A program made the translations under genes and the position numbers. 64,000 nt of DNA from Phytohabitans houttuyneae (GTDB lineage Bacteria > Actinomycetota > Actinomycetes > Mycobacteriales > Micromonosporaceae): positions 3,959,001 to 4,023,000 of the forward strand of contig NZ_BLPF01000001.1 of the NCBI RefSeq assembly GCF_011764425.1, in the 5' to 3' direction. This document shows, one piece after another, positions 37,951 through 46,787 of this stretch (positions within the stretch are counted from its first letter, which is position 1; each line of letters begins with the position of its first letter). The notes under the pieces were generated by a model. The model saw only the letters and a list, made by a program, of their open reading frames with translations, had not been told where the DNA came from and ran no database searches.

Positions 37951-38763
37951 GTGCGAGACTTGGGCGTGCCCAGCTCGATCGTCCTGACCGGTGCGACGAC
38001 CGGCATCGGCCGGGCCACCGCGCTCGCGCTCGCCGGCAAGGCCGGACACCTCATCCTGCACGGCCTGGAGCCGCAGTCGCAGGTCACGGACCTGCTCGCC
38101 GAGGTGCGGGCCGCGCTGCCGGCAGGTGCCACACTCTCGTACTTCGCGGCCGACTTCAGCGAGCTCGTCGCGGCGGAGCGGCTCGTCTCGCACGTCCGCG
38201 GCGTGACGGAGCGGGTCGACCTGCTCGTCAACAACGCCGCCCGCCCGGGTGCACCCACCCGCACGGTCACCGACACGGGGTACGAGCTCACGTTCCAGAC
38301 GAACTACCTGGCGCCGGTCGTCCTCACCAGCGGGCTGCTCGACCTGATCGGCACCGGCCGGATCGTCAACGTCGCCTCGGCCACTCACCTCTCCGCGTCG
38401 CTCCACCTCGACGACCTCACGCTCGCCCGGCACGGCTACTCGCCGTCGGCGGCGTACGCGCACTCGAAGCTCGCGCTCGTCACGTACTCCTGCTGGCTGG
38501 CCTCCCACCGCCCCAGCCCGGCCATCGACGTCGTCAGCGTGCACCCGGGCGTCATCGCCACCGACCTGCTGCACGCGATGTTCGCCGTCGGCGGCGACCC
38601 GCCGGAGCACGCGGCGGCCAACCTCGAGTACGTCGCCTCGCTTCGTGGCGACAACGGCACCTACTACGACGAGCGCAGCCCGGCGCAGCCAAACCCGGAG
38701 GCCACCGACCCGGCGACGCAGGACCAGCTGCACGCCGCCACCGTCGACCTCCTCGCGTACTGA
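37951..38763 (+). CDS. Short-chain dehydrogenase/reductase
   Basis: About 270 residues. The NAD(P) motif TGATTGIG near the N-terminus, LLVNNAA, a serine in VASATHL and the catalytic YAHSK place it in the classical SDR group. GTG 37951 is used here; GTG 37966 (MPSSIVLTG) also fits and neither has a strong ribosome site. The substrate is not predictable. It stands alone after a decayed gene. Confidence 0.82.
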   Translation: MRDLGVPSSIVLTGATTGIGRATALALAGKAGHLILHGLEPQSQVTDLLAEVRAALPAGATLSYFAADFSELVAAERLVSHVRGVTERVDLLVNNAARPGAPTRTVTDTGYELTFQTNYLAPVVLTSGLLDLIGTGRIVNVASATHLSASLHLDDLTLARHGYSPSAAYAHSKLALVTYSCWLASHRPSPAIDVVSVHPGVIATDLLHAMFAVGGDPPEHAAANLEYVASLRGDNGTYYDERSPAQPNPEATDPATQDQLHAATVDLLAY

Positions 38764-38767
38764 GGCG

Positions 38768-39154
38768 TCAGGCCGGCGGCTTCTGCCGGCACAGGCAGAA
38801 GGGATGGCCGACCGGGTCGGCGAAGACCCGGTGGGTCGCCGGGCTCGTCTGGTGACCCAGCTTGGTCCCGCCCAGCCGGAGCACCGCCTGCTCTGCCGCG
38901 TCCAGGTCGGCGACCCGGAAGTGCAGGTGCAGCTGCATGGACGAGGCGGGATCGGGCCAGGTGGGCGGCTGGTAGCCGGGCGACCGCTGAAACGACAGGT
39001 GCAGGTCGGCGTCGCGGCTCTCGCCCACCGAGCACCAGTCGGGGTCGGCGAAGACGATCGGCCAACCGGTGAGACCGCTGTAGAACTCGGCGAGCGCGGC
39101 GGGGTCCGGACACTCCAGCGCTATCCCGCTCAGGCTGCCCACGCCATCGGCCAC
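38768..39154 (-). CDS. VOC (glyoxalase-fold) family protein
   Basis: A 128-residue protein of two beta-alpha-beta-beta-beta modules: LSGIALECPDPAALAEFYS at the front and LHFRVADLDAAEQAVLRLGG mid-protein, ending RVFADPVGHPFCLC. This matches the small actinobacterial glyoxalase-like group. Possible metal ligands are His/Glu in the HLHFRV and FCLC strands. GTG 39154 has an AGGAGG site. Function unassigned; convergent with the SDR gene. Confidence 0.85.
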   Translation of the reverse strand: MADGVGSLSGIALECPDPAALAEFYSGLTGWPIVFADPDWCSVGESRDADLHLSFQRSPGYQPPTWPDPASSMQLHLHFRVADLDAAEQAVLRLGGTKLGHQTSPATHRVFADPVGHPFCLCRQKPPA

Positions 39155-39215
39155 GTCACGCCTCCTCGTCGAAGACCACGAGGACATCATGCACGGCCCG
39201 CCGGCGTGAGAGACG

Positions 39216-40196
39216 TCAGCGGATGCCGGCCTCGTGCGCCAGCACCGCCGTCGAGAGCGGCTCGATCCGCGCCCGCATGTCCGCGTACGCCGTTACGGTG
39301 AGCGGGTCGGTGAGCAGCCGGATCGCGCCGCTGAGCACGACGCTGACGCCGGAGCTGACCGCGGCGGCGGCGATGATCGCACCGGTGGAGGCGGTGGCCG
39401 GCGGTGCGGCCAGGGAAGCGATCAACCCGATGGCCCCGCCGGCGAGCGCCGCTCCGAAGACGATGCCGAGGATCGTGGCCGTCCGGGCCAGCGAGGCGCC
39501 GAAGTCGCCGTGGAAGAGCTTGAAACAGCGGCCGATGCCGTTGCCCCGCTCCAGCGCGATCACCGGGGAGAGCACGAGGAGGACGGCGGCGAAGTAGAGC
39601 CCGGGCACCACGCAGGCGCACAGCCCGGCGACGATGAGCAGGCCGGCGAGCAGGCCCCAGCCGAACATCGGCCCCACGCGGCCGACGGCGGCGGCAAGTG
39701 CCGCGCCGAGGTCCGGCTCCCGACCGGTCGCTGCTTCGACGACGATGCGTACGGCGGCGAGGGTGGCGAGCATCGACACGATCATCACGACCACCGTCCC
39801 GACGATCACCAGGCCGCTGCCGGCGAAGAGCGTGATGAGGGCCGGGTCATCGCCCGCCGCGGCGGCCTGGTCCATGTCACGGGTCGCGAATGACTGCCAG
39901 GCGGTGCTGACGGTCTCCACGGTGAACGTGAGCACCCCGACGATCGCCTGGAGCGCCAGGATCTGTCGCCAGCAGCGCTTGGCGATCGTAAAGCCGCGCT
40001 GCCACCAGCCGCCGAAGTCCGGACTGATCAGCGGATCGGGCGGGTAGCCGGGCGGCGGGCCCCACTGCCCACTCCACTGAGGACCCCACTGCGGGCTCTG
40101 CGGCGGCACCCAGGGCCCGGCGTAGGGCGCCGGCGAGGGCTGTCCCCCGGGTCCGGGTGGCACCGGCTGGCTCGGATACGGCGGCAGCTCGGACAT
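39216..40196 (-). CDS. Multi-pass membrane protein with Pro/Gly-rich N-terminus
   Basis: A 326-residue protein. The first 60 residues are rich in Pro, Gly, Gln and Trp (repeats of the PQWGPQW kind). About six hydrophobic helices follow, with a CACVVPGLYFAAVLLVLSPV segment typical of actinobacterial glycerophosphodiester-phosphodiesterase-like membrane domains. No catalytic domain is attached. Its role is unknown. Confidence 0.7.
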   Translation of the reverse strand: MSELPPYPSQPVPPGPGGQPSPAPYAGPWVPPQSPQWGPQWSGQWGPPPGYPPDPLISPDFGGWWQRGFTIAKRCWRQILALQAIVGVLTFTVETVSTAWQSFATRDMDQAAAAGDDPALITLFAGSGLVIVGTVVVMIVSMLATLAAVRIVVEAATGREPDLGAALAAAVGRVGPMFGWGLLAGLLIVAGLCACVVPGLYFAAVLLVLSPVIALERGNGIGRCFKLFHGDFGASLARTATILGIVFGAALAGGAIGLIASLAAPPATASTGAIIAAAAVSSGVSVVLSGAIRLLTDPLTVTAYADMRARIEPLSTAVLAHEAGIR

Positions 40197-40276
40197 GTGA
40201 GGCTCCGATGCGCTGGCGGGGGTCGGTGCGCCACACGGTACCGCCGGCGCGCCACGTCTGGAGTCCCGGGCAAGTC

Positions 40277-40304
40277 AGGAATAGATTGACATTTATCTAT
40301 TCCT
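40277..40304. promoter_or_regulatory. AT-rich inverted repeat over a -35 element
   Basis: AGGAATAGAT (40277-40286) and ATCTATTCCT (40295-40304) are perfect 10-base arms around TGACATTT. TTGACA (40286-40291) is a -35 match; a weak -10 TTAACC lies 17 bases on. This AT-rich patch in a very GC-rich region precedes the DUF4956-VTC-CotH operon and probably binds its regulator. The remainder of 40197-40468 shows no gene. Confidence 0.6.
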
Positions 40305-40468
40305 GCCGTTAACCTTCCGGAAGTGTTCCGATAACTATAGCGAACGTTCCATGGCCCACAGATGGCCGGGTGGTAAAGGCAACGTTGCCACAGACCGACC
40401 TGGGTACCCCCGGATGTCGCGCGGCCGCCGGACGTCGGAAACACGGACATCCAGGAGGTCACCAGGTC

Positions 40469-41071
40469 ATGGCCCAGCTCATCCTGTTCGCAGCCGACAT
40501 CGTCGCGGTGAGTTTGCTCGTATTCGGGCTCTACTTCCCGCGGCACCGCCGGCGTGACCTCGTGGTCGCGTACCTCGGTGTCAACGTCGGCGTCTTGGCC
40601 GTCGCCAGCGCGCTGAGCGTCAGCACCGTCGGCACCGGTCTAGGGCTCGGCATGGCGTTGTTCGGCGTGCTCTCGATCATTCGTTTGCGCTCCACCGAGC
40701 TCGACCAGCACGAGGTGGCGTACTACTTCTCGGCCCTCGCGCTCGGCCTGCTCGGCGCGCTCGACACCAAACCGCTCTGGCGCAACGCCGTGCTGATGGC
40801 GCTGATCCTGATCGTGATCTACGCCGGAGACCACCCGCGCCTCTTCCGCGGCTACCGCCACCAGGTCGTGGTCCTGGACTCCGCGATCACCGACCACGTC
40901 GCCCTCACCGCCCACCTCGAACAGCTCCTCGGCGCGCGGGTGCACTCCGCCAGCGTCCAGCGCATCGACCTCGTCGAGGACACCACAGTGGTCGACGTCC
41001 GGTACATGCCCGGCATGCGGGCCGCCGGCACCGGACAGAGCACCACCACGCAGCTGGTCGGGCACCGGTGA
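40469..41071 (+). CDS. DUF4956 membrane protein
   Basis: A 200-residue protein with about four to five membrane helices (residues 5-130) and a small cytoplasmic alpha/beta domain (about 135-195). The segment GMALFGVLSIIRLRSTELDQHEVAYYF is the conserved DUF4956 core. ATG 40469 has an AGGAGG site. Its TGA overlaps the next GTG (GTGA). Family members often sit next to VTC-domain genes; a role in polyphosphate handling or membrane coupling has been suggested from context, not shown here. Confidence 0.85.
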   Translation: MAQLILFAADIVAVSLLVFGLYFPRHRRRDLVVAYLGVNVGVLAVASALSVSTVGTGLGLGMALFGVLSIIRLRSTELDQHEVAYYFSALALGLLGALDTKPLWRNAVLMALILIVIYAGDHPRLFRGYRHQVVVLDSAITDHVALTAHLEQLLGARVHSASVQRIDLVEDTTVVDVRYMPGMRAAGTGQSTTTQLVGHR

Positions 41072-41883
41072 GCGCGGCGCTCTCCGCACTCAGCCCGATC
41101 GGCCTCGACGACCTGCTCGACCGCGCGGCACTGCAGACGCGCGTCGACCGCAAGTACGTCGTGCCGCGGGCGGCTGTCGACCACCTGCTGGCGGAGCTCG
41201 ACAGCGACGCCGAGGTGCTGGAGATCGGCGGGCTGCGGACCTTCACGTACGAGACGCTCTACTTCGACACACCCGAGCTGACCAGCTACCGGCTCACCGC
41301 GTACCGGCGCCGCCGGCGGTTCAAGGTGCGCACGCGCACGTACGTCGACTCCGCCGAGTGCTGGCTGGAGGTCAAGCTTCCCGGCGCCCGCGGGAGCACT
41401 GTCAAGCACCGCGCGGCGTACGACCGCGAGCATCGGGCCACTCTGGACCCCGGCCGGAACTTCGTCGACGAAGTGCTCGGCGCCCAGGGCGCGGGGGACT
41501 TCCAGCCCACGCTCGTCAGCCGGTACCGGCGCAGCACGCTCTACCTGCCGTCCGCCACCAGCCGCGTCACCATCGACACCGACCTGGCCTGGTACGACGA
41601 GCACCACGCCCTGCACCTGCCAGACCTCGCCGTCGTCGAGACCAAGACCGGCGCTCGGGCGTCCAGTGTGGACCGCCGGCTCTGGCGGCTCGGCATCCGT
41701 CCCACCCGCATCTCGAAGTACGCGACCGCGCTGGCCGCCCTACGGACCGAGCTGCCCGCTCCATCCTGGCGGCGACTGCTCCGCCGCCATTTCCAACCCA
41801 CCCAACGGTCACTCCCCGCGCCGGGAGCGGACCACCTCTGGCCCTGGAAGGAGCTTCCGTGCGCACTGCCGTCCGTTCGGTAG
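41068..41883 (+). CDS. VTC-domain protein, polyphosphate polymerase type
   Basis: A 271-residue protein with the VTC tunnel-fold (triphosphate tunnel metalloenzyme) motifs: DRKYVVP near the N-terminus, YFDTPELTSYR, the basic strand KVRTRTY, the acidic strand CWLEVKLPG, and VVETKTG with ISKYAT near the end. These correspond to the basic and acidic residues that hold polyphosphate and metal in yeast Vtc4. It has no membrane helix, so it acts on the cytoplasmic face, probably with the DUF4956 protein. Translation is coupled to both neighbours (GTGA in front; the next gene starts 25 bases before its stop). Confidence 0.88.
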   Translation: MSAALSALSPIGLDDLLDRAALQTRVDRKYVVPRAAVDHLLAELDSDAEVLEIGGLRTFTYETLYFDTPELTSYRLTAYRRRRRFKVRTRTYVDSAECWLEVKLPGARGSTVKHRAAYDREHRATLDPGRNFVDEVLGAQGAGDFQPTLVSRYRRSTLYLPSATSRVTIDTDLAWYDEHHALHLPDLAVVETKTGARASSVDRRLWRLGIRPTRISKYATALAALRTELPAPSWRRLLRRHFQPTQRSLPAPGADHLWPWKELPCALPSVR

Positions 41884-43955
41884 CCGTCCTGGCATCGGCG
41901 ATCCTCGTCGCCGGCCTCACCCTGCCGGCCAGCGCCGGCACCACCCGTGCCGCGCCCGACCGACCACAAGCAGCACCCGCCGTTTCCGCGGCGGACACCG
42001 AGGCGCAGGCCGCGGCCCAGGCGGACCTCGCCGGCGACATCACCTTCTCGGCGCCGAGCGGCACCTTCCAGGGCGAGCTTTCCGTCTCGCTGAGCACCGC
42101 GGTCAGCGGCGCGCAGATCCGCTACACGACCAACGGCCAGCCGCCGAACGCGTCCTCCGCGCTCTACAGCGCTCCCCTGCGCCTGACCGCGACGACCCAG
42201 CTGCGCGCGCAGGCGTTCGTCTCCGGCGCCGCGTCCGGCGAGCCGGGCACGGCGCTCTACGTCGCCCGCTCCTTCAACGCCAACCACGACCTCCCGCTCG
42301 TCGTCGTCGACGCGTACGGCGCCGGCCGTCCCGGCCGGGAGTACGTGAACGCGGCCACGATGGTCTTCGGCGCGTCCGCCGGCGCCGCGACCTCGCTGTC
42401 CGCCGCACCGGCCGTGGCCACACGCTCCGGCATCAGGCTGCGCGGCAACTCGTCGGCCACTTTCGAGAAGACGCCGTACCGGCTCGAGTTCTGGGACAAC
42501 CAGGACGACGACCTCGACTGGCCGGTGCTCGGCATGCCGGCCGACTCGGACTGGGTCCTGCGTGGACCGTTTACCGACAAGGCCCTGATCAGGGACGCGT
42601 TCGTCTACGGCCTCGGCCGCGACATGGGCATACACGCGCCGCGCGTCGCGTTCGTCGAGTTCTACCTCAACACGGACGCCAGCCCGCTCACCGCGAGCGA
42701 CTACATGGGCGTCTACATGATCGTCGAAACGATCAAGAACTCGAAGGACCGCCTCGACCTGAAGCAGCTCGACGAAGAGGACACCACCCTTCCCAAGCTC
42801 ACCGGTGGCTACATCTTCAAGTTCGAGTGGATGGCCGCCGAAGAGCCGATCCTGGAGTGCACCGGTGCCGCGGCGACCTGCTGGAACTACCTGGAGGTCG
42901 AAGACCCCGACCCCCTCGTGCCACAGCAGGAAGCGTGGCTCACCCAGCACCTGCAACAGTTTCACAACCTGATGCACACCACGGGGTACGCCGATCCACA
43001 GACCGGCTATCCCGCCTGGATCGACGTCGGCTCGTTCATCAACCAGCTCATCATCTACGAGCTGAGCCGCGAGATGGACGCGTACGTGCGCAGCGCCTAC
43101 TTCCACAAGGACCGCGACGCCAAGATCGTGGCTGGACCGCTGTGGGACTACGACCTGAGCTTCGGCGTCGGCGGCTTCTTCAACAACACGCAGACCTCCG
43201 GGTGGCAGCACCAGCAGACCCGCCAGCCCGTGGCGAACGACTGGTTCCAGATCCTCCTGCGTGACCCGGCCTTCCTGAACCAGGTGCGGATCCGGTGGCA
43301 GCAGCTGCGCCAGGGCCTGCTCTCGCCGGCCTCGCTCAACGCCCGGATCGACTCGCTGGCCGCCCCGCTCACCAACGCGGCGCAGCGAAACTTCCAGCGC
43401 TGGCCCAACCTCACCTCGCCCACGGTCGGGTTCTTCCAGACCCCGACGGCCAACACCTGGCAGGGCCAGGTGCAGGTGATGCGGACCTGGCTGACCCAGC
43501 GGGCGTCCTGGTTGGACAGTACGAGCGGATGGGGTGGCGCCACGACCACGCCGCCGCCCACGACCCCACCGCCCTCCACGCCGCCGCCCAGCACCCCACC
43601 GCCCAGCACCCCGCCGCCGAGCACGCCCCCGCCGAGCACACCGCCGCCGGGCGGCCGGGCCTGCACGGCCACCTACAGCGTGACCAGCCAGTGGACTGGC
43701 GGCTTCCAGGGTGAGGTACGGGTCACCGCCGGCACCGCGCCCATCACGGGCTGGACGGTCACCTGGACCTACGCCAACGGGCAGAGCGTCAGCCAGGCGT
43801 GGAACGCCACGGTGTCCACGAGCGGTACGAGCGTGACCGCGCGCAACGTGGCGTACAACGGCTCGCTCGGCGCCGGCGCGAGCACCGCGTTCGGCTTCAT
43901 CGGCTCGTGGAACGGCACCAACGCCGCACCGGCGGTGACCTGTACGGCGACCTGA
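41859..43955 (+). CDS. Secreted CotH-family kinase-like protein with chitobiase-type and CBM2 domains
   Basis: A 698-residue secreted protein. GTG 41859 has an AAGGAG site and opens a signal peptide (about 1-27). Order: chitobiase/hexosaminidase C-terminal-type beta domain (about 60-125, IRYTTNGQPPN), CotH atypical kinase domain (about 130-540), a TPPPS repeat linker (about 559-596), and CBM2 (about 597-698) with paired Cys and exposed Trp residues. The CotH domain carries LRGNSSATFEKTPYRLEF, ALIRDAFVYG, YMGVYMIVETI, a GGYIFKFE strand and the metal motif WDYDLSFG. CotH of Bacillus phosphorylates spore-coat proteins. Here the carbohydrate-binding parts imply a target on a cell-wall or substrate polysaccharide. 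Phosphate donor and target are unknown. Confidence 0.87.
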   Translation: MRTAVRSVAVLASAILVAGLTLPASAGTTRAAPDRPQAAPAVSAADTEAQAAAQADLAGDITFSAPSGTFQGELSVSLSTAVSGAQIRYTTNGQPPNASSALYSAPLRLTATTQLRAQAFVSGAASGEPGTALYVARSFNANHDLPLVVVDAYGAGRPGREYVNAATMVFGASAGAATSLSAAPAVATRSGIRLRGNSSATFEKTPYRLEFWDNQDDDLDWPVLGMPADSDWVLRGPFTDKALIRDAFVYGLGRDMGIHAPRVAFVEFYLNTDASPLTASDYMGVYMIVETIKNSKDRLDLKQLDEEDTTLPKLTGGYIFKFEWMAAEEPILECTGAAATCWNYLEVEDPDPLVPQQEAWLTQHLQQFHNLMHTTGYADPQTGYPAWIDVGSFINQLIIYELSREMDAYVRSAYFHKDRDAKIVAGPLWDYDLSFGVGGFFNNTQTSGWQHQQTRQPVANDWFQILLRDPAFLNQVRIRWQQLRQGLLSPASLNARIDSLAAPLTNAAQRNFQRWPNLTSPTVGFFQTPTANTWQGQVQVMRTWLTQRASWLDSTSGWGGATTTPPPTTPPPSTPPPSTPPPSTPPPSTPPPSTPPPGGRACTATYSVTSQWTGGFQGEVRVTAGTAPITGWTVTWTYANGQSVSQAWNATVSTSGTSVTARNVAYNGSLGAGASTAFGFIGSWNGTNAAPAVTCTAT

Positions 43956-43965
43956 CCCGTGACAT

Positions 43966-44008
43966 GCGGAAGGGGCCGTGCGGTGCCATTGGGCACGGCC
44001 CCTTCCGC
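43966..44008. terminator. Strong bidirectional terminator
   Basis: Perfect 16-bp stem, GCGGAAGGGGCCGTGC (43966-43981) with its complement (43993-44008), followed by TTT, between the convergent CotH and GH87-type genes. Confidence 0.8.
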
Positions 44009-44023
44009 TTTACCTGCCGCCGG

Positions 44024-46050
44024 TCACCAGGGGGATGGCGGCGCCGGCGGCACGACCGGTGGGCGGTCGTCGCAGGTGATGGTGTTGGGCAGCATCCACG
44101 GGGCGAGCCACGGGCCGGTGACCCCGCCGCCCTCGTTGCCGCCGAGGTCGGTCACCGCAAACTCGGAGCCGGCCGGTGTGAAGTGGAACGAGCCGCAGTT
44201 GTTGACGCCGACCGCGCCGACGTTGCGGGCGTCCACGTTTTCGAACGAGGCACCGCCGGCGACGCGGGCGCTCACCACGGAGGTACCCGTGCCGTCGACC
44301 CTGATGTCCTTGAACTTCACGCCCGTGATCGAGTAGAGGTCCTTCACGGGCCAGTCGCTGACCAGCATGACCGCGTTGTACGTGCTGTCGAGGTAGTGGT
44401 CGCCGGTGACCTGCACGTCGGCCGCGATGCTCTTGTCGAGCGCGTAGAACCAGATCGCGCCGAGGCCGATGTTCCAGTTCAGCTCGTACGTGCCGGCCCG
44501 TACCACCGTGTTGTTGGTGATCGAGAGCTTCCCGCCGAACGCCTCCGCGCCGAAGCGCGAGCCCGCGTGGATGCCGCTGCCCTCGCGGATCGGGTCGGCG
44601 ACGAGGTTGTTCGACACGGTGTTGTCGGTACCGCCGTAGATCGCGATGCCGTTGGCCAGCGTCGGCGTCTGCACGGTGTTGTGGTCGAAGGTGTTGCCCG
44701 AGTTCGTCGTCTTCTCGGCCCACATGGCCAGGCCGTCGTCGCCGGTGTTGCGGATGAAGTTGTTGGAGACGACCGAGTTGGTGACGCCGGTGTGGAAGTT
44801 GAGCGCGTCGGCGATCTGGTCGACGATCACGTTGTTGGTGATCCGCGTGTTCGTCATCGGCCCGTCAAACCACATGCCGACCTTGGTGTGGCGGATGTAG
44901 AGGCCGTCGATCGTGGAGTTGCTCAGCGCGCCACCGATGCCGTTGACCTGGTCGGTGTCGATCCGCTCGCGGACGTCGCCCTCGATCGTAAAGCCGGACA
45001 GGTGGACGTTGCTGCTGCCACCGTCCTTGACGTACTTGCCGTAGAAGCCCACGCCCGTGTGCACCGACAGGTCCGGCGCCGGCTCGGGGAGCGCGACCTC
45101 CTTGCCCTTGATGATCGTGTACCAGCTGCCCGCGCCCTCGATCGTCACGTTGTCCACGATGATGTGGCGGTTGACCTGGTACGTGCCCGGCGGGATGTAA
45201 ACCTTGAGCTTGGCCCGCTTGGCGAAGGCGATCGCCCGGTCGAACGCGTCGGACGACTCCCGGCGGCCCGTCGGGTCGGCGCCGAAGAGCAGCACGTTGG
45301 CCGCGACGAGCCGCACGTGCGGCGGCGCGACGAGCTGCGAGTCGAGCAGGTCGATGACCGTCCAGGCGGCGTTGGTGCCGGCCGGCGCGGTGAGCCGCAC
45401 GCGATCGCCCGCCTTGTACGTCTTGCCGAGCAGGAGCCGCTGCTCGTCGTAGAAGTGCATCGGGCGGAACGGCTTGGTGATCGTGGGAGTCGGCGTGGTG
45501 GCCGCCGGCACGCACGCGCACTCGGTGATCCACCAGTCGGGGTGCAGCAGGTCCGCATTGGGATCGTTCGTGAACGGGTACTGGTTGTACAGCCACGCGT
45601 ACTGCGACGTGAGCGTCATGGTCTGTCTTTGCCCGCCCCGACCCGTACCCTTGCCGTTGACCGTGACGTCGAGCGGCGCGGTGATGCCACCCCCGTTGGG
45701 CGCGTCGGGGATGCTGTAGCGCACGTTGATGGCGTTGGCCGCGGCCGGCAGCGTGAACTCCACGTACTGCCCGGGGCGGAGCCGCACCGCCTTGCGGCCG
45801 GACGCCTCCGCCGGCAGCGTGTAGGCCGTGCGGTCGGGGCCGATGATCGCGCCGTTGGTCACGGCGTTTTCGGCCTCCTGCTCCAGGAAGTCGACGCGGG
45901 CGCCGCGGCCGGCGACGAGCGCGGGATCGAGGGCGGCCCGGGTCACGACCGGAGCCGCGGTGGTCCGGGCACCAGCGCTCGCCGGTGCGGCCCAGGCGGC
46001 CGCGGAAAGTGTCAACACGAGGGCAGTGCCAGCATGCGTCTGTGGGTCAT
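44024..46050 (-). pseudogene. Secreted GH87-type alpha-1,3-glucanase, frameshift in signal peptide
   Basis: About 675 residues. The catalytic beta-helix has QIADALNF (Asp about 414) and, 23 and 24 residues further, the Asp pair of NTGDDGLAMW. This equals the spacing of the three catalytic Asps I recall for GH87 (Asp1067/1090/1091 in Bacillus Agl-KA). An N-terminal carbohydrate-binding-like domain (about 45-190) is also found in the large GH87 protein at 58.8 kb. The only sensible start, ATG 46050 (MTHRRMLAL), is in a different frame from the rest of the signal peptide (ALVLTLSAAAWAAPASA). One missing G near 46039 would join them. Hence either pseudogene or assembly error. Predicted activity: cutting alpha-1,3-glucan or mycodextran in fungal walls. 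Confidence 0.8.
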
Positions 46051-46088
46051 CAGCACGGGCTCGTTTCTGCGAGTTCGGGAGTGTTGCA

Positions 46089-46787
46089 GTGACGTTAAAT
46101 CCCGACGCGGAAGGAGACAAGAGCCGATTGGATGACGAAAAAAGTCGTGCCGATGACGCAAGAACCGTACACCCGCTGTTGACGCACCTCCTCGCCGCAG
46201 CCGAAGGACGGTTTGCGCCGGTCGATGGCGGCTGCACCGTACTCCCTTCGCTGCCCGGCGGCCTGGCCTGCTCGGTCGCGTTCACCGGCCACGCGTTCGT
46301 GGCCAGCGCACACTCCGCGGAGGACGTGCTGGCCCGCGGCGCGGACGGGTTCGGCGGCTCGCTGGCACCGGACTTCCTGCGCTGGCTGGCCGGGCCGACC
46401 GGATGGATCGACGTCGTCGACGCGACGCTTGTCGCCCGCGGCACCGGCGGTCCCGGCCTGCCGGCCCGCACCGACGTCGAGGGGCACCCGCGCGTCCAGC
46501 ACGCGAGGAGCCTGCGCCGCGACGTCCGGGTGTACGGCGACGAGCGCGGCCTCGTCACGCTCGCCTCCGGCCTGGCCGGCCGCACCGAGCTTGGCATCGA
46601 GGCGGCGCCGGAGGGCCAGGGCCGAGGCTGGGGACGGGCCCTGCTGCGCGACGCGCTCGGGCTGGTGCCGGCCGGCGAGCCGGTGTTCGCGGGGGTGGCG
46701 CCGGGCAACGCCCGCTCGCTGCGTGCGTTTCTCGCGGTCGGCTTCGTACCGCTCGGCAGCGAGGTCACGATCCGACCTGGACAGTGA
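46089..46787 (+). CDS. GNAT-like acetyltransferase
   Basis: About 232 residues. The C-terminal half has the acetyl-CoA loop GQGRGWGRALLRDA and the closing GNARSLRAFLAVGFVPLG, the usual GNAT end. The N-terminal half (HPLLTHLLAAAEGRFAPVDGG) is seen in an actinobacterial GNAT subgroup. GTG 46089 has a GGAG site. The start region is antisense to the promoter region of the GH87-type gene. The acceptor is unknown. Confidence 0.75.
   Translation: MTLNPDAEGDKSRLDDEKSRADDARTVHPLLTHLLAAAEGRFAPVDGGCTVLPSLPGGLACSVAFTGHAFVASAHSAEDVLARGADGFGGSLAPDFLRWLAGPTGWIDVVDATLVARGTGGPGLPARTDVEGHPRVQHARSLRRDVRVYGDERGLVTLASGLAGRTELGIEAAPEGQGRGWGRALLRDALGLVPAGEPVFAGVAPGNARSLRAFLAVGFVPLGSEVTIRPGQ

Follow-up and report, generated by a model that had tools for sequence, protein, structure and literature searches.

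A DUF4956-VTC-CotH operon of Phytohabitans houttuyneae: a near-obligate gene pair with a swappable secreted partner and a candidate surface-polymer cassette

The operon described here encodes a DUF4956 membrane protein, a VTC-domain protein and a CotH kinase-family protein, and is found in Phytohabitans houttuyneae, an actinobacterium with an 11.3-Mb genome. It lies within a stretch of 64,000 nucleotides (contig NZ_BLPF01000001.1, positions 3,959,001 to 4,023,000), hereafter the window. The closest described systems belong to Gram-positive Pel loci. Genes for CotH, a poly-phosphate polymerase, DUF4956 and DUF4832 lie beside pel clusters (PMC7112168). In Streptococcus intermedius, deletion of SIR_1592 (an MgtC-ACT protein) or SIR_1594 (CotH) lowered aggregation in sputum medium by more than half, and Pel increased in the SIR_1592 mutant and decreased in the SIR_1594 mutant (PMC12345266). 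SIR_1592, SIR_1593 and SIR_1594 are presumed here to be homologues of DUF4956, VTC and CotH. The analyses in PMC12345266 reportedly did not find the trio arrangement outside the Pel locus. The VTC family has been mapped across eukaryotes, and PPK1 is named as the main bacterial enzyme (PMC10657179).

The P. houttuyneae operon is tentatively read as one version of a widespread cassette for surface polymers, in which a membrane polyphosphate-making core would be combined with a swappable secreted partner; this reading is given a probability of about 0.48. The genes and their start signals, in window coordinates, are as follows.

40453 to 40458, plus strand: Shine-Dalgarno-like AGGAGG of the DUF4956 gene, from sequence
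40469 to 41071, plus strand: DUF4956 gene, starting at an ATG 10 bases past AGGAGG; membrane protein of 200 amino acids (Pfam E 9.8e-59)
41068 to 41883, plus strand: VTC gene, starting at a GTG inside a 4-base GTGA overlap; VTC-domain, polyphosphate-polymerase-like protein of 271 amino acids (Pfam and Vtc4 alignment)
41846 to 41853, plus strand: Shine-Dalgarno-like GGAAGGAG of the CotH gene, from sequence
41859 to 43955, plus strand: CotH gene, starting at a GTG 5 bases past GGAAGGAG, with a 25-base overlap with VTC; secreted CotH kinase-family protein of 698 amino acids (Pfam and hydrophobic N-terminus)

The overlaps of 4 and 25 bases make the three genes look like one operon. The list of open reading frames also holds a longer GTG-started DUF4956 frame from 40370 and a longer CotH frame from 41358. 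A first-pass annotation of the sequence had described tight coupling of the three genes and named DUF4956, VTC, CotH, chitobiase-type and CBM2 domains; the gene limits bear out the coupling, and Pfam recovers every one of the domains.

DUF4956 and VTC form a near-obligate pair. Two genome samples were compared, 198 genomes of the window's phylum and 199 of the phylum of Clostridium mobile (locus L089; Bacillota in the broad sense), each holding one known positive as its centre (the P. houttuyneae and C. mobile genomes). Both families occur in the same 20 of 198 genomes and the same 25 of 199, and no genome has one alone. These identical sets give Fisher p values of 8e-28 and 3e-32, which are overstated because related genomes are not independent. 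Copy numbers in the second sample are equal genome by genome (31 DUF4956 and 31 VTC), with 30 of the 31 pairs lying within 2.5 kb and the last split over two contigs, near their ends. Copy numbers in the first sample are equal if two one-frame VTC pieces in each of two genomes (G174 and G186) are taken as one gene apiece. CotH follows the pair: it is present in 17 of 198 genomes, 16 of them among the 20 pair genomes, and in 27 of 199, 23 of them among the 25. Corynebacterium glutamicum, a laboratory and industrial strain that served among the control genomes, has all three families.

The pairing holds locus by locus. Both genes are present in all 22 loci of the window's own phylum and in 59 of 60 examined loci of its own family. 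Among 80 named loci, which are the best of at least 570 confirmed places ranked by likeness to one query, VTC occurs in 77, and in 76 of these no more than 250 bases separate it from DUF4956; in the other one a Cthe_2159 gene stands between the two. The named loci are mostly from Bacillota and also include a spirochaete (L057), a Caldisericia bacterium (L073) and proteobacteria (L081, L125). Evolutionary distances of VTC and DUF4956 correlate with r 0.93 (100 loci), compared with 0.74 for VTC and CotH (66 loci). The coupling of these genes is not chance, and the consistent co-occurrence that the first-pass annotation had marked out for survey was found in both samples.

The secreted, outer part of the cassette is swappable and consists of either CotH or Cthe_2159. 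Across 100 loci, the third partner is CotH in 65, Cthe_2159 in 25, both in 1 and neither in 9. Among the 80 named loci, 72 have one of the two (CotH 52, Cthe_2159 20). Cthe_2159 genes 2.2-2.9 kb away on the opposite strand (L061, L072, L091, L108) and a CotH gene 1.0 kb away (L125) were counted as partners. Both partners occur within the P. houttuyneae genome, which has three VTC, three DUF4956 and two CotH matches, with VTC and DUF4956 adjacent in all three places. The copy on contig 2 (L009) has the order VTC-DUF4956-CotH, and its CotH has an N-terminal hydrophobic segment. The copy on contig 3 (L010) has DUF4956-VTC followed by a Cthe_2159 protein (PF14262, 2.3e-74). This Cthe_2159-bearing copy is the window's nearest relative on the 100-locus tree (66% identity over 384 columns). 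On the joined VTC and DUF4956 tree, which is quick and has several long branches, at least 11 switches between CotH and Cthe_2159 are needed, against a mean of 22 and a least value of 18 in 100 shuffles, with L046 and the 9 partnerless loci left out of the count. An N-terminal hydrophobic segment is present in 23 of 27 Cthe_2159 hits.

Within the window's family, DUF4956 is found in 48 of 101 genomes (47 above the cut-off) and falls into a strong class, that of the window, and a weak class, that of L009. Outside P. houttuyneae, 60 of 82 such places were examined (40 of 50 strong, 20 of 32 weak). All 20 weak-class places have CotH without CBM2. The 40 strong-class places have VTC in 39, CotH in 13, Cthe_2159 in 16 and neither partner in 11, and CBM2 is present in all 13 of these CotH proteins.

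Cthe_2159 is a cellulose- and acid-sugar-binding beta-helix, and both it and CotH are among the domains special to anaerobic rumen fungi (PMC6712302); these are the same two families that act as interchangeable partners here. One locus (L046, 5210-11407) has a CotH and two Cthe_2159 open reading frames around VTC-DUF4956. Searches of open-licence papers found no report joining VTC, DUF4956 and Cthe_2159.

The VTC protein matches Pfam VTC (PF09359) with E 5.8e-26 and 91.9 bits against a curated cut-off of 23, and its profile matches yeast Vtc4 with E 2.4e-24; a single-sequence search of solved structures returned nothing. Residues R25, K29, R88, R90, K103 and K113 align with Vtc4 R196, K200, R264, R266, K281 and K294, and R155, R166, E191, K193 and K217 align with R361, R373, E426, K428 and K458 (Vtc4 numbers were counted along the alignment). 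All 11 compared positions are thus kept in the window. The 11 Vtc4 residues belong to its active site. All 99 relatives retain the first eight, and 98 of them retain E191, K193 and K217, with a gap in the remaining one. In PMC4641920, K458 is the catalytic lysine, and four basic Vtc4 residues are replaced by glutamates in a related hydrolase. The window's VTC is most likely a polyphosphate polymerase using ATP. A Pfam search with E up to 0.01 detected neither SPX nor Vtc1-type (DUF202) domains in the VTC and DUF4956 proteins. None of 100 VTC proteins has a hydrophobic N-terminus.

The CotH protein has the following parts.

41859 to 41936, plus strand: probable signal peptide of 26 amino acids ending in ASA, from the hydrophobic segment, with the cleavage site placed by inspection
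42054 to 42242, plus strand: CHB_HEX_C_1 (chitobiase-type) domain, residues 66-128 (Pfam E 9.8e-17)
42432 to 43514, plus strand: CotH kinase domain, residues 192-552 (Pfam E 3.2e-63)
43515 to 43661, plus strand: proline-rich linker with PPPST repeats, from sequence
43662 to 43937, plus strand: CBM2 cellulose-binding module, residues 602-693 (Pfam CBM_2 E 2.9e-27; E 7.5e-19 to 6qfs)

The kinase domain scores 214.6 bits against Pfam CotH (PF08757; curated cut-off 23.8), and its profile matches Bacillus cereus CotH (5jd9) with E 9.7e-28. Residue D407 (43077-43079) was placed at B. subtilis D228 and D430 (43146-43148) at D251 through the alignment to 5jd9 and their 23-residue spacing rather than a B. 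subtilis alignment. Loss of these aspartates inactivates the B. subtilis enzyme (PMC7821199). Among 69 CotH proteins, D430 is kept in 65 (4 gaps), D407 in 59 (5 gaps) and E290 (42726-42728 in the window) in 67 (1 gap). Missing CotH active-site residues would have counted against the first-pass annotation; VTC keeps its 11 Vtc4 positions and CotH its catalytic aspartates, and neither this check nor the co-occurrence survey refutes it. An N-terminal hydrophobic stretch is present in 64 of 70 CotH proteins, compared with 5 of 70 in a control stretch, and some of the six proteins without it look like mis-called or cut starts. At two loci, a single long frame beside VTC-DUF4956 contains two matches to the CotH domain (L045 9380-13126 and L047 9689-13381).

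In the predicted model of DUF4956, five long helices are joined to a C-terminal domain that is ferredoxin/ACT-like and similar to that of MgtC (2lqj). All 59 aligned members share R72 (40682-40684) and R74 (40688-40690). The window's protein has no match to Pfam MgtC (PF02308), and its paralogue in L009 reaches 24.3 bits against a cut-off of 31.4; overall, DUF4956 resembles MgtC. A single-sequence search of solved structures with DUF4956 gave only a weak match to ATP synthase c (E 0.044), which was put down to chance. In a direct coupling analysis of VTC and DUF4956, with 87 effective sequences, the signal came mainly from columns at the C-terminus; these were judged gap artefacts, and the analysis was discarded.

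Links to polysaccharide extend beyond Pel. A protein with DUF3492 and a glycosyltransferase domain was taken to be PelF-like. PelF-like sequence was found in 11 of 163 loci, PelG in 10 and either in 12, and the remaining 151 have neither within stretches of 3-19 kb (64 kb for the window). When a PelF-like and a PelG protein were compared with the window's 64 kb by tblastn, no hit appeared at E up to 10. The trio is therefore common without Pel genes nearby, unlike the report in PMC12345266. A possible link to GGDEF genes was also considered: among the 67 loci that span at least 9 kb, 5 carry the motif. By Pfam, PelG and CotH are joined in one protein in Paenibacillus abyssi and Rummeliibacillus stabekisii (L058 3950-7216 and L075 4178-7267), and two further loci (L065, L090) have open reading frames of similar length with PelG hits. 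In L180 (1020-6410), a DUF4956-VTC pair with neither CotH nor Cthe_2159 lies beside GT2, sulfotransferase, WecG and MatE genes and forms a candidate exopolysaccharide cluster. Three loci of the same genus (L173, L176, L186), like L180 among the 11 strong-class places with neither partner, look alike and exopolysaccharide-like by eye, with the Pfam check made for L180. The proposal of the first-pass annotation that the trio modifies a surface polymer thus gains support from CBM2, the PelG-CotH fusions and the exopolysaccharide neighbours.

Two further neighbourhoods are of note. In L174 (3270-4184), from the window's genus, a phosphodiester glycosidase (NAGPA) gene is divergent from DUF4956, which suggests phosphodiester-linked sugars. 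In L036 (9931-13922), a LicD protein and a cytidylyltransferase/kinase-like protein are encoded near DUF4956-VTC, and CotH is on another contig.

In the proposed surface-polymer cassette, cytosolic VTC would polymerise polyphosphate from ATP, as its Vtc4-like active site suggests. DUF4956 would most likely hold VTC at the membrane and gate or conduct the product outwards, with its ACT-like domain as a sensor, and the product would reach the cell exterior. The CBM2 module would tether the window's CotH to a beta-glucan, where the kinase would most likely phosphorylate, or attach phosphate or polyphosphate to, extracellular polysaccharide or its proteins, a modification that would change the charge and cohesion of the matrix. 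The core often lacks the kinase, so its product would have a use of its own.

Several observations weigh against the cassette, beginning with its published relatives: Pel was made without any of the deleted accessory genes in S. intermedius, and the mutant of SIR_1593, which has a polyphosphate polymerase domain and is presumed to be VTC, still aggregated (PMC12345266). The linkage has exceptions. VTC is missing from 3 of the 80 named loci: for L060 and L103 it was located in another part of the genome, and for L051, an archaeal contig, none was found. Among the 40 strong-class places, L168 alone has no VTC beside DUF4956. A third partner is missing from 8 of the 80 named loci (6 judged cut by a contig end) and from the 11 strong-class places noted above. 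CotH occurs without VTC-DUF4956 in 1 of 17 and 4 of 27 CotH genomes (one of the 4 below the family cut-off), VTC-DUF4956 occurs without CotH in 4 of 20 and 2 of 25 pair genomes, and of the 31 DUF4956 places in the second phylum, 20 have CotH at a distance of up to 4 kb. No polysaccharide synthase was recognised adjoining the operon, whose neighbour is a putative alpha-1,3-glucanase.

The proteins themselves add further points on the same side. A scan of 45 CotH proteins found CBM2 in 1, a CHB domain in 2 and an LTD domain in 4, so recognisable sugar-binding modules are rare in the family at large. The target of CotH may be a protein, as in spore coats. Position 27 of VTC, two before K29, is Glu in 90 and Asp in 8 of 99 relatives and Thr (T198) in Vtc4, and an acidic residue near this site marks hydrolases (PMC4641920). 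The invariant K86 corresponds to A262 of Vtc4. With its acidic position 27, the VTC active site is not purely Vtc4-like; R25, K193 and K217 fit the polymerase side, and position 27 fits less well. The membrane part of DUF4956 has no standout match among the solved structures listed, and its ACT-like domain would suit a regulator equally well.

The most probable of the alternatives, though itself unlikely, is a regulatory device. In this reading, DUF4956 would be an MgtC-like sensor that, with a triphosphate-handling VTC, adjusts ATP, phosphate or polysaccharide synthesis, and the secreted protein would merely be part of the regulated surface programme. However, VTC keeps the polymerase residues compared, and the close linkage to secreted proteins suggests physical assembly or a shared substrate.

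A somewhat smaller chance attaches to VTC being another triphosphate-tunnel enzyme, for example one that degrades polyphosphate (a polyphosphatase) or one that transfers a group to a carrier lipid or glycan. Many activities are known for this fold (PMC4641920), 98 of 99 relatives have an acidic residue at position 27, unlike Vtc4, the LicD- and cytidylyltransferase-like genes of L036 lie near VTC, and searches of open-licence papers found no report of bacterial VTC activity. Yet basic R25 and K193 stand at the Glu-2 and Glu-171 sites of hydrolases (by motif reading, without direct alignment), and the catalytic lysine of Vtc4 is kept as K217.

It is improbable that exported polyphosphate drives extracellular phosphorylation, with VTC-DUF4956 as synthase and exporter and with CotH, or Cthe_2159 by anchoring, transferring or tethering the product to matrix polysaccharide. 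If true, it would mean energy-rich phosphate chemistry outside the bacterial cell without ATP. Least probable is the proposal of the first-pass annotation that VTC makes and DUF4956 exports polyphosphate that CotH uses instead of ATP: all three parts are present with their active-site residues kept, the cell exterior is short of ATP, and the ATP source for CotH is an unanswered question in the spore-coat paper (PMC7821199), but the proposal drew no direct support and is weakened by CotH's use of ATP in vitro in that paper, by the non-kinase Cthe_2159 as partner in 25 of 100 loci and 16 of 40 window-class places, and by the genomes with CotH and no VTC.

The surface-polymer cassette remains the preferred reading. 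In both phyla sampled, bacterial VTC and DUF4956 are almost inseparable, and either of two secreted families that look unrelated can serve as their outer partner; a trio known from papers at Pel loci now extends well beyond them. With this pairing, the roles of several poorly understood families can be tested jointly. It offers a concrete route to two questions, the means by which bacteria bring polyphosphate to the cell exterior and the supply of an extracellular kinase, and its presence across distant bacteria hints at a little-studied way to build or modify the cell exterior.

Two inverted repeats flank the operon.

40276 to 40305, no strand: perfect 11-base inverted repeat (CAGGAATAGAT, 8 bases, ATCTATTCCTG), upstream of the operon
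43966 to 44008, no strand: perfect 16-base-pair hairpin between convergent genes, downstream of CotH

The upstream repeat is AT-rich within a 70% GC region, and TTGACA spans its spacer. Even when up to 3 mismatches are allowed, its 10-base arms match nowhere else in the genome, and it is a possible single-target operator. The first-pass annotation had begun the operon at 40277, which is no gene start and falls at this repeat. The downstream hairpin has no T-run and is absent from the output of a terminator scan; it is a possible terminator. An Rfam scan of 38700-45000 gave no match, and a sigma-70-type promoter scan of 40150-44100 found none. The putative alpha-1,3-glucanase gene (CatAgl domains; 44024-46768) is convergent with the operon.

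Among known systems, the Gram-positive Pel accessory genes (PMC7112168, PMC12345266) have the same three families in contiguous order, with a secreted CotH and likewise a DUF4956-type membrane protein with an ACT domain. The window differs from these loci in lacking PelF-like and PelG sequence over 64 kb and in the CBM2 and CHB domains of its CotH. NELoc-2 of Clostridium perfringens (PMC11677781), a locus of disease-linked strains, shares polyphosphate-polymerase-domain proteins and CotH, which occur there with a glycosyltransferase and a polysaccharide deacetylase; the passages describing it do not name DUF4956. The MgtC family shares membrane helices and an ACT-like C-terminal domain, whereas the window's DUF4956 has no Pfam MgtC match and is paired with VTC. 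The yeast VTC complex shares through Vtc4 a tunnel-domain protein, the same 11 active-site residues and a membrane partner; the window's system differs in having no SPX or Vtc1-type domain by Pfam, an acidic position 27, DUF4956 as partner and a secreted third protein. Finally, the Bacillus spore-coat kinase CotH (5jd9) shares the CotH domain and catalytic aspartates, whereas the CotH of the window is secreted, bears CBM2 and is encoded in a VTC-DUF4956 operon.

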